Positions 19,631-25,888 of a stretch of 64,000 nucleotides of DNA are shown here, in pieces. Source of the DNA: Bacteroidia bacterium (GTDB taxonomy: Bacteria > Bacteroidota > Bacteroidia > J057). Within the stretch, counting starts at the first letter, position 1. Every line of letters begins with the position of its first letter. The notes under the pieces are model-generated. The model saw only the letters and a list, made by a program, of their open reading frames with translations, made no database searches and was not told where the DNA came from. The DNA lies in the NCBI GenBank assembly GCA_033391075.1, contig JAWPMV010000001.1:1488001-1552000 (forward strand). The letters run 5' to 3'. A program made the translations under genes and the position numbers.

Positions 19631-20065
19631 ATGGCACGTAATTATCCAATGGCAGGCTCGCACTTTCAAGTGGATTGGGGTGGAACATCGATTAGCTTTC
19701 AAAAAATATCTGGTTTGCGGATTACTCATGAAGTAGTTGAATATCGAGGGGGGGCAAGTCCTGAATACTCCAATATCAAAATGCCTATCGCTACAAAATA
19801 TTCAGATATCACTCTGAAAAGAGGAATTTGTCAAGGAGATAATGAGTTTTTTGATTGGATGAATACCGTTGCTCTGAACACTATTGAAAGACGTGATATC
19901 ACCATTAGTCTTTTAAATGAAAGTCACGTACCTGTGGTGGTATGGAAGGTGAAAAATGCATTTCCCAGGGAAGTTGCATATGGAGATCTTGATGCGATGA
20001 ATGCCAACTTTGCTATAGAAGAATTGGTGATAAGCCATGAAGGGATGACTGTTCAGAATGATTAA
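19631..20065 (+). CDS. Phage-tail/contractile injection system tube protein (gp19-like), orphan
   Basis: A 144-residue protein that matches the T4 gp19-like conserved tail-tube family (also Afp1/Pvc1 tubes of extracellular contractile injection systems). Signs are the FQVDWGGTSISFQKISGLRI opening, then VEYRGGASPEYSNIKMPIATKYSDITLKRG and a closing A-N-F-A-I-E-E-L-V-I-S-H-E-G segment. In an injection machine this protein stacks as hexamers to form the inner tube. No sheath, baseplate, spike or ATPase genes are visible in this window, so it appears to be an orphan pair with the 19232 gene. Confidence 0.8.
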   Translation: MARNYPMAGSHFQVDWGGTSISFQKISGLRITHEVVEYRGGASPEYSNIKMPIATKYSDITLKRGICQGDNEFFDWMNTVALNTIERRDITISLLNESHVPVVVWKVKNAFPREVAYGDLDAMNANFAIEELVISHEGMTVQND

Positions 20066-20659: not shown

Positions 20660-21162
20660 GTATTTATTCTCTGTTTGATCCACTATTCCTAAGGGGAGTT
20701 TTCCCTAATAATTTTTGCTTACTGTTGATTTGCCTTCATGATTCCCGACTAAGAGGATGTAGCAATTATATGGCTAGACGCGAAGCACAATGAAATAGAT
20801 TATTATTCTTAGTATGAAAATGAATAATACCCAAAGCCCTGTTTTTTCTATGCACGTTCATCGCGATTGGAGGGAATTTATTCCTGCATCCTTATGCCGG
20901 AAAATAAAAACAGCACGAGATCATTTCGTATCAAAAAAATTGGCTAAGGTTCATCAATAGCATAATTTTAAGCTAATTGTTATTTCCCGGGATTCCCCTT
21001 TATGGGGAATCCTTTTCTTTTAACTTATCTCCTGAATTTTTGTATCTTTATTTCAGATCAGCGTAACCAGACACGACACCTCTTTTATACTCAACATTCA
21101 TACATAATGCTGGTAAACCTAAATCAGGTCCTGCTTTGGGACCTGGAAAGCTATATGTTAGC
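20660..21162. other. 503-bp gap with a terminator and a possible tiny ORF
   Basis: There is no recognisable gene here. A 48-residue frame (20814-20960, plus strand) starts with an ATG but has no recognised family and no clear ribosome signal. A strong hairpin at 20990-21021 ends the upstream unit. TATCTTTA at 21045-21052 is a weak -7 candidate for the 21163 gene, too far upstream to be certain. Confidence 0.4.
20990..21021 (+). terminator. Rho-independent terminator
   Basis: GGATTCCCC (20990-20998), a 5-base loop TTTAT and GGGGAATCC (21004-21012) form a perfect 9-bp stem followed by a T-rich run. This is the clearest intrinsic terminator in the first third of the window. Confidence 0.75.
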
Positions 21163-21960
21163 ATGAGAATCGTATCAAAATTTCATGACTATTATGACAG
21201 TGTCCAGGCAAGTGGTCAGGACCAAAGTTGTGTGTATGTAAGGAAGGAGGATAAAAGTCTGGTCCACAATACGGACACTCATTACCACAAAATATCCCAG
21301 TTGAAAAATCTGGGAGAAGCTGCATTGTTTAGTAAAGAAAGAGGTCCTGAGCATCAATCCATTCTTTTCTTTCGTGAATTAACCCTGGGCTATTGCGGGA
21401 AACTTTATCCCATATTTCAGTTTGTACATTTCGAAGGCAATAAGGCAAAGAAACTGCATCATTTCTATAAGCCTGAAGATGCGGAAGCCTATTTCCAGAC
21501 GGTCATCGATGACTATCCCTATGATGGTCATTATTTGAATTATTGGGGGAATGGGAAGAAACTGGGACTTGATCATGCCTACAGCTATGAGAGTCGCTAC
21601 GATATTGAAGTAGACGATCTCTTCCACTATTTCCAGGTTCCTCTTTTTATGTTACCTGATATGCCCTATGATTTTTCGGCTTTGGAGGAAGTTTGGGGCT
21701 ATAATCACTTTCGCAGAGGGAAAGATGTAGTGAATATCCTGCTAAATCCTTGTTTACGCAGGCTTGAATTTTTTCGTATAAAAGATCCTTACAGCTGTTT
21801 TCAGGACATTTACCAATACATAAATGGGGTACTGGGAAATACAGAGAATATCGAAACCAAAATGAGCGATCAGGATAAAATTCAGCAACATGGCTTTGAT
21901 CAGAAATACGGTTTCCGCAAAAGACCGGGTAATAAAAAACGCAGAAAAAATAAGAAATAA
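21163..21960 (+). CDS. Conserved hypothetical protein
   Basis: A 265-residue protein from the ATG at 21163 (a TTG at 21136 would add nine residues). The opening MRIVSKFHDYYDSVQASGQD is characteristic of a family of unknown function found in bacteria and some phages. The body is soluble with many aromatic residues and the C-terminus is strongly basic (KKRRKNKK), suggesting nucleic-acid binding, although this is not shown. It is monocistronic, with a strong terminator upstream. Confidence 0.55.
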   Translation: MRIVSKFHDYYDSVQASGQDQSCVYVRKEDKSLVHNTDTHYHKISQLKNLGEAALFSKERGPEHQSILFFRELTLGYCGKLYPIFQFVHFEGNKAKKLHHFYKPEDAEAYFQTVIDDYPYDGHYLNYWGNGKKLGLDHAYSYESRYDIEVDDLFHYFQVPLFMLPDMPYDFSALEEVWGYNHFRRGKDVVNILLNPCLRRLEFFRIKDPYSCFQDIYQYINGVLGNTENIETKMSDQDKIQQHGFDQKYGFRKRPGNKKRRKNKK

Positions 21961-22001
21961 AGGCTAGGCTTTTTTACCCTTAATCTTATTCCTAACAGAA
22001 C

Positions 22002-22649
22002 ATGAATCTCAAACATATTTTTTCGAAAGGCCCTAAAAGCCCTGAAGATAAAGCAGAACGGTTTTGGAAATGGTTCGCAAAGAATCAGCAACAATTTCTC
22101 TTTATTACCTCAGTATCTGTAGAAGAAAAAGACCGTATGCTCAATGAGTTTCTGGAAGAACTTCACAAGTATGATGAGAATTTATACTTCGAAATGGGAG
22201 GGCATCCTGACGACCAAAAAGTAGAGCTTATTATTACGGCTGAAGGCAATATTGAGGCATTCCCTTCGGTAGAACTCCTGGTGGGAAAAGCGCCATCTTT
22301 TGAGTCCTGGGAAGTGATTGCATTTAAACCACCTATGGGTACAGGCTTTACTACCGAATATGGAGGCTACTCCTTTGATCCTGAAAAAATCCTGTTTATA
22401 CCCTTGAAAAACCCTGATAATCCACAGGCCATAGGGCTAAAAGTGTGCTATCCGGATTACAGAGAAGAAGATAGAAATATCTTTATAAATGGAAGCTTTA
22501 TCATGTTGGATGTGATATTGGGCGAAAAATCCTGTGTAGAGGATATCGACTATCTTGATGCTGCCCAAACACCTGAAAATATTGTTGATTACCCTTTTCG
22601 AAGCTTAAGTAACATCAAAAGCTACATTGACGAAGTGAAAGCTCGATAA
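22002..22649 (+). CDS. Hypothetical protein, cytoplasmic
   Basis: A 215-residue soluble protein without signal peptide or membrane segment. A central MGGHPDDQKVELIITAEGN followed by ESWEVIAFKPPMG and a C-terminal YPFRSLSNIKSYIDEVK recall DUF695-like or related uncharacterised proteins, but I cannot match it firmly. It lies 41 bases after the conserved gene at 21163 and may be on the same transcript. Confidence 0.5.
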   Translation: MNLKHIFSKGPKSPEDKAERFWKWFAKNQQQFLFITSVSVEEKDRMLNEFLEELHKYDENLYFEMGGHPDDQKVELIITAEGNIEAFPSVELLVGKAPSFESWEVIAFKPPMGTGFTTEYGGYSFDPEKILFIPLKNPDNPQAIGLKVCYPDYREEDRNIFINGSFIMLDVILGEKSCVEDIDYLDAAQTPENIVDYPFRSLSNIKSYIDEVKAR

Positions 22650-22746
22650 TCATCTGGTACATGTCTTTGAAGGGACAAGTAGGTTTTTAGGAATTCCTTT
22701 ATTTTAGGCTCATCCTCAGAAGATATTGCGTTCTAAGTATTATGAA

Positions 22747-23979
22747 ATGATTGCACCCACTATTCCGGATAATGAGGTTGACCGATTGGCTGCTCTTTAT
22801 GCCCTAAATTTAAAAGAGCAGAGCAAAGAAGATCGTTTTGACAAAATGGTCAATCTGGCTTCAAGCTGTTTGAAAGTTCCTATAGCCTATGTCGCGACCG
22901 TTGATAAGAATCATCAATTGATCCATGCTTCCTGCGGATTGAATTTCGTTTCATCAGATCGAACGACTTCCTTCTGCGGCCATGCCATCCTTCAGGACGC
23001 CCCGCTCATCATTCCTGATACTCATGCAGACGATCGCTTTCATGACAATCCCCTGGTCGTCAATGATCCCTTTATTCGATTCTATGCAGGCTATCCCTTG
23101 ACAAGTCCGGATGGATTTAAAATCGGAACCTTATGCATAGCAGATCATCAGCCTCGAGTTCTTACAAAAGCAGAACTGGAGATGTTCATGGATTTGGGCT
23201 TTATGCTAGAGCAGCAATTGCAATTGTTGCAATTAGGAGAAATCCAGCTACAATTGGTTCAGAGTCGAAATGAAACCTTGCGGATCAATAAGGAGCTTGA
23301 CAATCACAATCAATTTTTTCAGCAAATCTTTGGGAGATATATGAGTCAGGAACTTCTTTCCTCGATTCTCAGCAATGAAAAAAACCTGGAACTAGGAGGG
23401 GAAGAGCGAGAAGCCACGGTAATGATGAGTGATTTGAGAGGATTTACCCCTATGGCTAAACGTTATGGCGCTCAACGGACCGTAGAAATCCTCAATATGT
23501 ATTTGGAAGAAATGATTGATATTATCCAGCAACATGGAGGTTTTATCAATGAAATTTTGGGCGATGGGATATTGGTTGTCTTTGGAGTTCCACATTATAG
23601 AGATAATCCTTGTTACAGTGCCGTGATGTGTGCCAAAGCTATGCATGATGGCCTGGAGCGTGTAAATGAAAAATTGAAAGCCAAAGGTTACCAGCATTTG
23701 GAAATGGGAATAGGGATCAATTCTGGGAACTTAATAGCCGGCAATATTGGCTCCAGTCAACGGATGAAATATGGGGTAATCGGAGATACCGTGAATCTGG
23801 CTGCCAGAATAGAGTCCTTTACCGTAGGAGGGCAAACCCTTGTATCTGAACGAACCTATGAAAATGTGCAGGATAAGATAGAGGCAGAAGGAAATTTACG
23901 TGTCAAGATCAAAGGCTATAAGCAGGTCTTCAAAATCTTTGATCTGTCTAGTGCTAAATCAGCAACTCCCAGCAAGTAA
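22747..23979 (+). CDS. GAF domain class III nucleotide cyclase (guanylate-cyclase-like residues)
   Basis: A 410-residue protein from the ATG at 22747 (a TTG at 22726 would add seven residues). The N-terminal GAF domain (about 25-160) has no haem or flavin signature that I can identify. A coiled linker leads to a class III cyclase domain. Metal aspartates are Asp229 (MSDLRGF) and Asp273 (LGDG), and the transition-state pair is Asn350/Arg354 (DTVNLAARIES). The substrate-specifying positions read Glu269 and Gly343 rather than the Lys and Asp/Thr of adenylate cyclases. The Glu swap is a guanylate-cyclase feature. The product is therefore likely cGMP or mixed. The nearest cNMP-binding gene is at 24763. 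Confidence 0.75.
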   Translation: MIAPTIPDNEVDRLAALYALNLKEQSKEDRFDKMVNLASSCLKVPIAYVATVDKNHQLIHASCGLNFVSSDRTTSFCGHAILQDAPLIIPDTHADDRFHDNPLVVNDPFIRFYAGYPLTSPDGFKIGTLCIADHQPRVLTKAELEMFMDLGFMLEQQLQLLQLGEIQLQLVQSRNETLRINKELDNHNQFFQQIFGRYMSQELLSSILSNEKNLELGGEEREATVMMSDLRGFTPMAKRYGAQRTVEILNMYLEEMIDIIQQHGGFINEILGDGILVVFGVPHYRDNPCYSAVMCAKAMHDGLERVNEKLKAKGYQHLEMGIGINSGNLIAGNIGSSQRMKYGVIGDTVNLAARIESFTVGGQTLVSERTYENVQDKIEAEGNLRVKIKGYKQVFKIFDLSSAKSATPSK

Positions 23980-24033
23980 TTCTACAAGCTGAATTCGAAA
24001 AGAAAAATGAAGGTCTATACCTAACTTGCCTGC

Positions 24034-24747
24034 ATGCAGGAAGAAATCTATGAACCTGGTTTCGTCGAGAAACTCTTTGACCAGATGAGCGATTCCTACG
24101 CTCGGATGAATTATATCACTTCTTTTGGTTTCAGTGAACGTTGGAGAAAGCAATGTGTAAAAGTCTTAGCCATAGAAAAGGGCGCCAAAGTTTATGACCT
24201 GATGACGGGTATGGGAGAATGTTGGAGTCAAATTCTGGAAAACACCGGAGCCGAAGGGGAATTGCATGCCCTGGATATCTCTACCAATATGCTGGCCAGA
24301 GCACACAAACGAAAACAAAAATTCAAGGATCATCAGATACGGATTTTAAAAGAAAATGTATTTGAAAACAGTTTTCCGGATGGGGAGGCAGATTTTATTG
24401 TATCAGGATTTGGAATAAAAACCTTTAATCCAGAACAGTTGGAAATTTTGGCGAAAGAGATGTTTCGACTCCTCAAGCCAGGAGGCAAACTTTCGCTGAT
24501 AGAAGTGTCCATTCCACCCAATAGGCTCCTAAGGATATTTTATATGTTTTACCTCAAACAAATCATTCCTATTCTGGGCTGGATGTTTCTGGGGAGTCCG
24601 GAAACGTATAAAATGCTGGGTGTCTACACCGAGAAATTTGAAAATGCCAAAGACCTGGAACCTATTTTCAGGCAAGCAGGATTTCGCGTAACTTATGTAA
24701 GCTATTTCTTTGGCTGTGCAAGTGGGATTATTGCGGAGAAATCCTAA
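24034..24747 (+). CDS. UbiE/MenG-like SAM-dependent methyltransferase
   Basis: A 237-residue class I methyltransferase. The motif I variant is VYDLMTGMGEC, followed by LHALDISTNMLARA and a later GGKLSLIEV motif, the order found in the UbiE/MenG family of quinone-biosynthesis C-methyltransferases. The usual DxGxGxG is altered, so it is probably a relative rather than MenG itself. It lies between the nucleotide cyclase and a Crp/Fnr regulator, 15 bases before the latter. Confidence 0.7.
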   Translation: MQEEIYEPGFVEKLFDQMSDSYARMNYITSFGFSERWRKQCVKVLAIEKGAKVYDLMTGMGECWSQILENTGAEGELHALDISTNMLARAHKRKQKFKDHQIRILKENVFENSFPDGEADFIVSGFGIKTFNPEQLEILAKEMFRLLKPGGKLSLIEVSIPPNRLLRIFYMFYLKQIIPILGWMFLGSPETYKMLGVYTEKFENAKDLEPIFRQAGFRVTYVSYFFGCASGIIAEKS

Positions 24748-24762
24748 AGCGAAAGACTGTAA

Positions 24763-25344
24763 ATGACCGAACTAGAAGCTTATATTCATTCCTATTTTGG
24801 AATTCAAGACACGCATATGACTGCTCTGGCAGAGTTGTTCAGGGAGACAGCTTTGAAAAAAGGGGAATATTTCACCCGAATTGATACGCAATGCCAGAAA
24901 TTGAGTTTTATACGGTCGGGACATCTCCGTGTATTTGCCTATAAGGAGGATAAAGATATCACCCAATGGATTTCCTCTCAGGGGGAATTTGTTACGGATC
25001 TGGCAAGCATGGTCTTTAAGACACCTTCTCGTTGGAATATTCAGGCCCTTACGGATTGTGAACTCTATAGCATCAGTAAAGAAAAATACGATGAGATCGG
25101 CAAAATTATCCCTCAATGGGATCAATTGGAAAAGCTATTTCTCGCCAAGTGTTTCCTGACCCTGGAGGATCGTGTCTATTCTTTCCTCTCCATGAGCGCC
25201 GAGCAAAGATATCTCCAATTGTTCGAGAAGAAACAGGACCTTTTCAATGAAACCCCTTTGCACTATCTGGCCTCTATGTTGGGGATGACGCCCGAAACCC
25301 TGAGCCGAATCAGGAAGGCACAAAGCCTGGAGAAAAATTCTTGA
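24763..25344 (+). CDS. Crp/Fnr family transcriptional regulator
   Basis: A 193-residue protein with a cyclic-nucleotide-binding-like beta barrel (residues about 25-110) and a helix-turn-helix (LHYLASMLGMTPETLSRIRK, near 170-190). The usual cAMP-contact Arg/Ser pair is not obvious (EFVTDLAS in its place), so the ligand is uncertain. It sits 0.8 kb downstream of a nucleotide cyclase that may make cGMP, but no direct link is shown. It shares a probable transcript with the methyltransferase gene. Confidence 0.75.
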   Translation: MTELEAYIHSYFGIQDTHMTALAELFRETALKKGEYFTRIDTQCQKLSFIRSGHLRVFAYKEDKDITQWISSQGEFVTDLASMVFKTPSRWNIQALTDCELYSISKEKYDEIGKIIPQWDQLEKLFLAKCFLTLEDRVYSFLSMSAEQRYLQLFEKKQDLFNETPLHYLASMLGMTPETLSRIRKAQSLEKNS

Positions 25345-25402
25345 TATAGATCAAGACAAGGAATAGGAGTACTAACGAGATTTGTAAAAACAAGAAACAT
25401 AG

Positions 25403-25888
25403 ATGTTTAAACAACTCTCAATCCTTAGTATCATCACCTTAATTTCCTCAACTCTCATGGCACTTGAATTAAAAACCACCATCCGCATTGAAGCTTCTCC
25501 TGAAGTAGTATGGCAAATCCTGACAGACTTTGACGCCTATCCCGCGTGGAACCCTTTCATCAAAAAGCTTGAAGGAGAAGTATCGCTTGGTGAAAAAATC
25601 CGGGTCGAGATTACGGATATGAAATTCAAACCCAAAATTCTGGCCTTTGATCCCCGTAAAAAACTGGAGTGGATTGGTCGTTTTCTTATGCCCGGAATAG
25701 TAGATGGTCGGCACTACTTTATTCTGGAAGACAATGGGGATGGAAGTACCAGTTTTATACATGGAGAATATTTCAAAGGGCTTTTGGTACCTTTTCTCAA
25801 GAAGAAACTGATGGGAGAAACTCGCGCGGGTTTTGAAGCCATGAATCAGGCATTAAAGAAACGAGCAGAAGCCATGCTTTCTTCCTGA
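25403..25888 (+). CDS. SRPBCC (START-like) domain protein
   Basis: A 161-residue protein with a hydrophobic N-terminus (signal or anchor) and a single SRPBCC/polyketide-cyclase-like domain. The clear signature is VWQILTDFDAYPAWNPFIKK with a later ILEDNGDGSTSFIHGEYF. The fold encloses a hydrophobic cavity for lipid or other apolar ligands. It is 58 bases after the Crp/Fnr gene. Function unknown. Confidence 0.75.
   Translation: MFKQLSILSIITLISSTLMALELKTTIRIEASPEVVWQILTDFDAYPAWNPFIKKLEGEVSLGEKIRVEITDMKFKPKILAFDPRKKLEWIGRFLMPGIVDGRHYFILEDNGDGSTSFIHGEYFKGLLVPFLKKKLMGETRAGFEAMNQALKKRAEAMLSS

Follow-up and report, generated by a model that had tools for sequence, protein, structure and literature searches.

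Few bacterial guanylate cyclases have been proven according to the sources cited here, namely Cya2, XC_0250 and the Rhodospirillum centenum system. Cya2 of Synechocystis PCC 6803 (PDB 2w01) carries a Glu-Gly specificity pair (PMC4215837) and contributes in vivo to the level of cGMP, not to that of cAMP (PMC4284465). Replacement of its Glu488 by Lys makes it an adenylate cyclase; either form is specific for its own nucleotide, with little of the other product, and phytochrome-Cya2 fusions without the C-terminal extension of Cya2 were almost inactive (PMC5995499). A Tyr of Cya2 was reported to raise guanylate cyclase activity strongly (PMC4215837, citing Rauch 2008). XC_0250 of Xanthomonas campestris is a class III cyclase with TPR repeats that makes cGMP, and it adjoins a cGMP-binding CNBD-GGDEF protein by which the nucleotide is read (PMC3770947). 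In Rhodospirillum centenum, cGMP is read by the CRP homologue CgrA (PMC4681086). The guanylate cyclases predicted for Bacteroidetes in PMC4886424 have a Glu-Lys/Arg pair and represent another family. Literature searches on bacterial, Bacteroidetes/Bacteroidota or Flavobacteria guanylate cyclases returned no study of the protein type described below.

The window, a 64,000-nucleotide stretch of a Bacteroidia bacterium genome (assembly GCA_033391075.1), contains one gene whose product resembles Cya2. Its parts, all on the forward strand, are as follows.

22747..23979, forward strand: GAF-cyclase gene, 410 amino acids, predicted guanylate cyclase (open frame; start backed by orthologues)
22828..23217, forward strand: GAF sensor domain, residues 28-157 (Pfam PF01590, 5.9e-13; phmmer to chain 4zmu_A, 5.3e-31)
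23167..23334, forward strand: long signalling helix, residues 141-196 (predicted model)
23329..23340, forward strand: FGRY cyclase transducer element, residues 195-198 (alignment; motif name from PMC5995499)
23410..23931, forward strand: class III cyclase catalytic domain, residues 222-395 (Pfam PF00211, 5.6e-25; best structural match 2w01)

The reading frame begins with an ATG at 22747 and its stop codon ends at 23979. A TTG at 22726 is a possible upstream start; the ATG is at the position where the Flavobacteriaceae orthologues L108 and L119 begin, with a peptide near-identical to MIAPVIPENE. The score for PF00211 (Guanylate_cyc) was 88.4 bits against a cut-off of 21.9, showing that the protein is a class III cyclase. 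The GAF domain was absent from the initial annotation. In the predicted model a single long helix joins it to the cyclase domain and runs into the FGRY element. Inspection by eye revealed neither a transmembrane nor a secreted part, and an NCBIfam search of the protein gave no named family above cut-off.

The solved proteins closest to the whole protein were 6fht (2.6e-54) and 2w01, which is Cya2 (1.2e-49); the next cyclase was the adenylate cyclase CyaB (2.2e-30). The first of these is an artificial phytochrome cyclase built on the Glu488Lys form of Cya2, i.e., with Lys at the position of Glu269. The window protein and Cya2 were 44% identical over 208 columns with zero gaps. The model had a pLDDT mostly above 90 in the cyclase part and low to middling values in the GAF part, and its best solved matches in Foldseek were again 6fht and 2w01. 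With VIA-align, 2w01_A scored Z 29.4 (1.3 A over 191 residues) and CyaB was tied with it at Z 28.8, indicating that the fold confirms the family, not the substrate; guanylate and adenylate cyclases were not separable by fold alone. The match of model residues 216-407 on Cya2 residues 435-625 placed Glu269 on Cya2 Glu488. The residues that bear on substrate and catalysis are listed here.

23431..23433, forward strand: metal-binding Asp229 (alignments)
23551..23553, forward strand: Glu269, first substrate-specifying position, equivalent to Cya2 Glu488 (alignments, structural match)
23563..23565, forward strand: metal-binding Asp273 (alignments)
23767..23769, forward strand: Lys341, common to 25 of 25 Cya2-clade rows (clade alignment)
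23773..23775, forward strand: Gly343, second substrate-specifying position (alignments)
23794..23808, forward strand: Asn350 and Arg354, the transition-state pair, and Ala353, which is Tyr in Cya2 (alignments)

Glu269 lies three residues ahead of Gly272-Asp273 and is aligned with a Lys in CyaB, and Gly343 with a Thr, so the replacement of Lys by Glu and of Asp/Thr by Gly described in the initial annotation is real. The danger it had named, a pairing of residues misread in the alignment, was ruled out by the gapless alignment to Cya2, which has the same Glu/Gly pair. Asp229, Asp273, Asn350 and Arg354 were all intact, showing that the class III catalytic set is complete. CyaB of Pseudomonas aeruginosa (3r5g) shares the fold but differs in its Lys/Thr pair and in an Asp at the Lys341 position, and it lies outside the Cya2 clade. 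The abstract of the Cya2 structure paper (Rauch 2008) reportedly mentions an "interacting lysine", which we infer to be the residue aligned with Lys341.

A tree was built from 95 domains: 44 other cyclases of the same genome, 49 from the window and relatives, Cya2 and CyaB. Twenty-five rows, including the window protein and Cya2, fell on one side of a branch with an SH-aLRT of 99, and the window protein formed a group of four with three Flavobacteriaceae proteins (SH-aLRT 99). The same 25 and the same four were recovered when the four specificity columns were masked (SH-aLRT 98 and 99, respectively). The protein thus shared a group with Cya2 and not with the K-type or Q-type cyclases, and none of the 44 further cyclases of the genome fell with it. 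A forced tree that joined it to all 44 was rejected (p-AU 1.45e-5), although this is a weak test as the paralogues are themselves mixed. Members of the clade came from Cyanobacteriota, Pseudomonadota, Rokuibacteriota, Rhodothermota and Bacteroidota. Within the 25 rows the first position was Glu in 24 and Asp in one, the Lys341 position was Lys throughout, and the Gly343 position was Gly in 20 and Ala in five; a Tyr before the catalytic Arg was present in only two rows, both from Synechocystis. The six Glu rows among the 70 outside the clade did not have the Lys. Of the 22 Lys-type rows, 17 had Asp, Glu or Asn at the Lys341 position and none had Lys there. Such a swap of charge between the first position and position 341 would be expected if both side chains meet; shared descent alone could also produce it.

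The genome encodes 45 class III cyclase domains above the Pfam cut-off, and the combination of Glu with the equivalents of Lys341 and Gly343 occurred in the window protein only. The first specificity position was Gln in 34 (three quarters of the total), Glu in seven and Lys in four. The other six Glu domains, L019 (Glu/Asp) and five almost identical ones from a tandem cluster (Glu/Asn), all lacked the Lys341 equivalent. The six domains with the best PF00211 scores (L017-L022) formed a separate group; their motifs, KI[KQE]T[IV]GD, we take to resemble those of animal cyclases. These six kept Asp at the second position and had Lys (three), Gln (two) or Glu (one, L019) at the first. The L020 domain is about 1.4 kb from the CNBD L061, which has an intact-looking motif, on the opposite strand. 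The tandem cluster spans L106 5745-18679 (contig C1, about 7,295,700-7,308,700) and L107 6648-15497 (about 7,316,500-7,325,400) and comprises ten genes on one strand, each encoding a cyclase domain at the N-terminus and most of them TPR-like C-terminal parts. Among nine genes compared, the cyclase domains were near-constant within two groups, five being 90-97% identical (Glu/Asn type) and four 88-96% (Gln/His type). The remaining parts were only 13-34% identical, apart from two pairs (87% and 70%). In the 70% pair, D7303/G7317, the cyclase domains came from different groups (50%), as if cyclase domains had been swapped or homogenised between sensors.

Relatives of the window protein were sought by two approaches. 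A scan of genome contigs with the window/Cya2 alignment gave 30 loci; it used two peptide patterns, and Glu is over-sampled among these loci because one of the patterns demands it. A protein-only search, free of this bias, of 395 genomes of the phylum found matches at E<=1e-40 in 14 genomes, the window's own included; the other 13 comprised five of Glu/Lys type (L138-L142) and eight of Lys type. In a class-wide sample of 395 genomes, the window's own was alone at E<=1e-45. Among the 60 nearest genomes (own counted), ten matches were obtained at E<=1e-30: the own genome, eight genomes of the same family and one (G023, L086) over the GAF half only. The matching cyclases of the eight were of Gln type where readable; L089 was too partial. 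No orthologue of the window protein was found in 12 same-family genomes. In the genomes searched, full-length GAF-cyclase orthologues were limited to the three Flavobacteriaceae (L108, L114 and L119, from Flagellimonas and an uncultured member of the family; 51-53% identity), and these alone among 54 relatives compared shared the GAF domain. They had the same length and layout and kept Glu, Lys and Gly, but their gene neighbourhoods were different: the neighbours of the window gene were not found there (tblastn E<=1, one chance-level match). The patchy distribution fits lateral transfer of the window gene, but its GC content was not unusual.

The window protein differs from Cya2 in three respects, although both belong to one clade and have the Glu/Lys/Gly trio and the FGRY element. 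Cya2 itself has CHASE2 and a transmembrane part (PMC5995499) where the window protein has GAF; CHASE2 was also present in L116, a close relative of Cya2. The Tyr before the catalytic Arg is replaced by Ala353, and the C-terminal extension of about 120 residues is absent, as it is in the three orthologues. Among 21 clade loci measured, at least 120 residues followed the domain in 13 and at most 27 in eight, some of which may have been truncated by contig ends or frames. The clade loci L109, L110, L113, L115, L116, L117, L121, L131 and L138-L142 share a conserved C-terminal extension, about 120 residues long. The extensions of four of eight tested clade members matched PilZ at E<=1, the best being the L110 extension alone (2.3e-05, 25.1 bits, cut-off 22.5); the whole of L110 scored 20.7 bits. 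PilZ domains often bind c-di-GMP, so the extended members, likely makers of cGMP, may be under c-di-GMP control.

These data allow a mechanism to be proposed. The enzyme would be a dimer held together by the signalling helix and the cyclase domains, and each active site would hold two metal ions on Asp229 and Asp273 of one chain, with the base pocket (Glu269/Gly343) and Asn350/Arg354 supplied by the other. Guanine would be selected by Glu269, with Lys341 close to the pocket, so that the product would be cGMP. A ligand or redox signal at the GAF domain would be passed along the helix and the FGRY transducer element and set the activity. We consider it likely, judging from sequence comparison, that the protein prefers GTP over ATP, since it has the gapless likeness to Cya2, the same Glu/Gly pair, a counterpart of the residue of the Glu488-to-Lys switch, and a place in the shared clade. 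There is likewise good reason to regard it as a cytosolic class III nucleotidyl cyclase that belongs to the Cya2 clade, is regulated by its GAF domain and makes cGMP. As a prediction, the guanylate cyclase reading of the initial annotation thus holds: Cya2 is the nearest characterised relative, the clade has 99% SH-aLRT, the Lys is conserved and the Glu-to-Lys switch is published. The two missing Cya2 features call for caution: with Ala353 and no extension, the enzyme may be less active or under different control.

An enzyme of dual or ATP-leaning specificity, in which Glu/Gly without the Cya2 Tyr discriminates weakly between bases and the cell uses cAMP or both products, is unlikely. It would agree with Ala353 in place of Tyr, and the EGY triple mutant of Ma1120 was equally specific for ATP and GTP (PMC4215837), showing that the specificity residues alone do not always impose GTP. 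However, Ma1120 as a scaffold is distant, the Glu488 form of Cya2 is specific (PMC5995499), and the retention of Glu/Asp with Lys in all 25 clade rows points to a retained function. It is considerably less probable that the domain is degenerate or very weak and is kept for its GAF part or as partner of another cyclase; the extension on which the Cya2 fusions depend is absent and the 12 same-family genomes gave no orthologue, but the metal, transition-state and specificity residues are all intact, and the three orthologues, likewise without the extension, keep them. That the enzyme is a pyrimidine cyclase belonging to a Pycsar-type anti-phage system is highly improbable: PADLOC PycC models matched the cyclase domain (best 5.3e-24), but these matches did not exceed that of the general Pfam cyclase model and fell far short of Cya2 (173 bits), and none of five neighbours scanned (21136-25888) matched a Pycsar effector model.

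The gene neighbourhood was compared with those of the known cGMP systems. The Crp/Fnr-type gene that the initial annotation had placed about 0.8 kb downstream does exist.

24763-25344: Crp/Fnr-type gene, 0.78 kb beyond the cyclase stop

Its product matched Pfam cNMP_binding (1.5e-11). Nucleotide-binding CNBDs have a phosphate-binding motif of Gly-Glu and Arg-Ser/Thr-Ala; the pocket of this protein reads GEFVTDLASMVFKTPSRWNIQA, without Arg-Ser/Thr-Ala. At 14 homologue loci in relatives (L152-L165, each with about 1.5 kb of flank), neither the cyclase nor the methyltransferase was present. With the motif missing and the neighbourhood not conserved at these loci, the link to the Crp/Fnr-type gene was rejected, and nothing indicates that cGMP acts through it. 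The closest homologue locus (L152, 54%), in a same-family genome, adjoins a 48.6% homologue of the SRPBCC gene at 25403; as the two are neighbours there as well, the Crp-type and SRPBCC-like genes (window 24763-25888) may be a real functional pair. By eye, L108 and L119 (Flagellimonas) had a Crp/Fnr-type gene of another kind, which lies upstream in divergent orientation and has the Gly-Glu but lacks the Arg; L114 had none. Neither a CgrA-type nor a CNBD-GGDEF layout was seen around the window gene, which in this respect differs from XC_0250 as described in the literature. Promoter-like and terminator-like sites around the gene were at chance level, and the genes downstream follow at short distances (54 and 15 bases), which would allow co-transcription. 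No match to the cGMP phosphodiesterase models PF00233 or PF02112 was found in the genome; PF00233 was also silent in all control genomes, so that this blank is uninformative. A 144-residue protein at window 19631-20065 looked by eye like phage-tail or contractile-injection tube proteins. Of 33 CNBDs in the genome, three (L061, L065 and L068), all multidomain, had the R-S-A/G motif in register. It is conceivable, though fairly doubtful, that the genome has a dedicated cGMP circuit apart from cAMP, in which the window enzyme would be a laterally gained GAF-sensing GTP cyclase, the five tandem Glu-type cyclase-TPR proteins would be further cGMP makers, and one of these three proteins, not the Crp regulator, would be the reader.

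The window protein is probably a GAF-controlled guanylate cyclase and, on the evidence of its sequence, a new and patchily distributed member of the known Cya2 clade. As a guanylate cyclase, it would overturn nothing already known. With its soluble GAF sensor and an obvious single-residue control (Glu269Lys), such a member of the Cya2 clade would be a compact system in which to ask if cGMP is made by the entire Glu/Lys clade.
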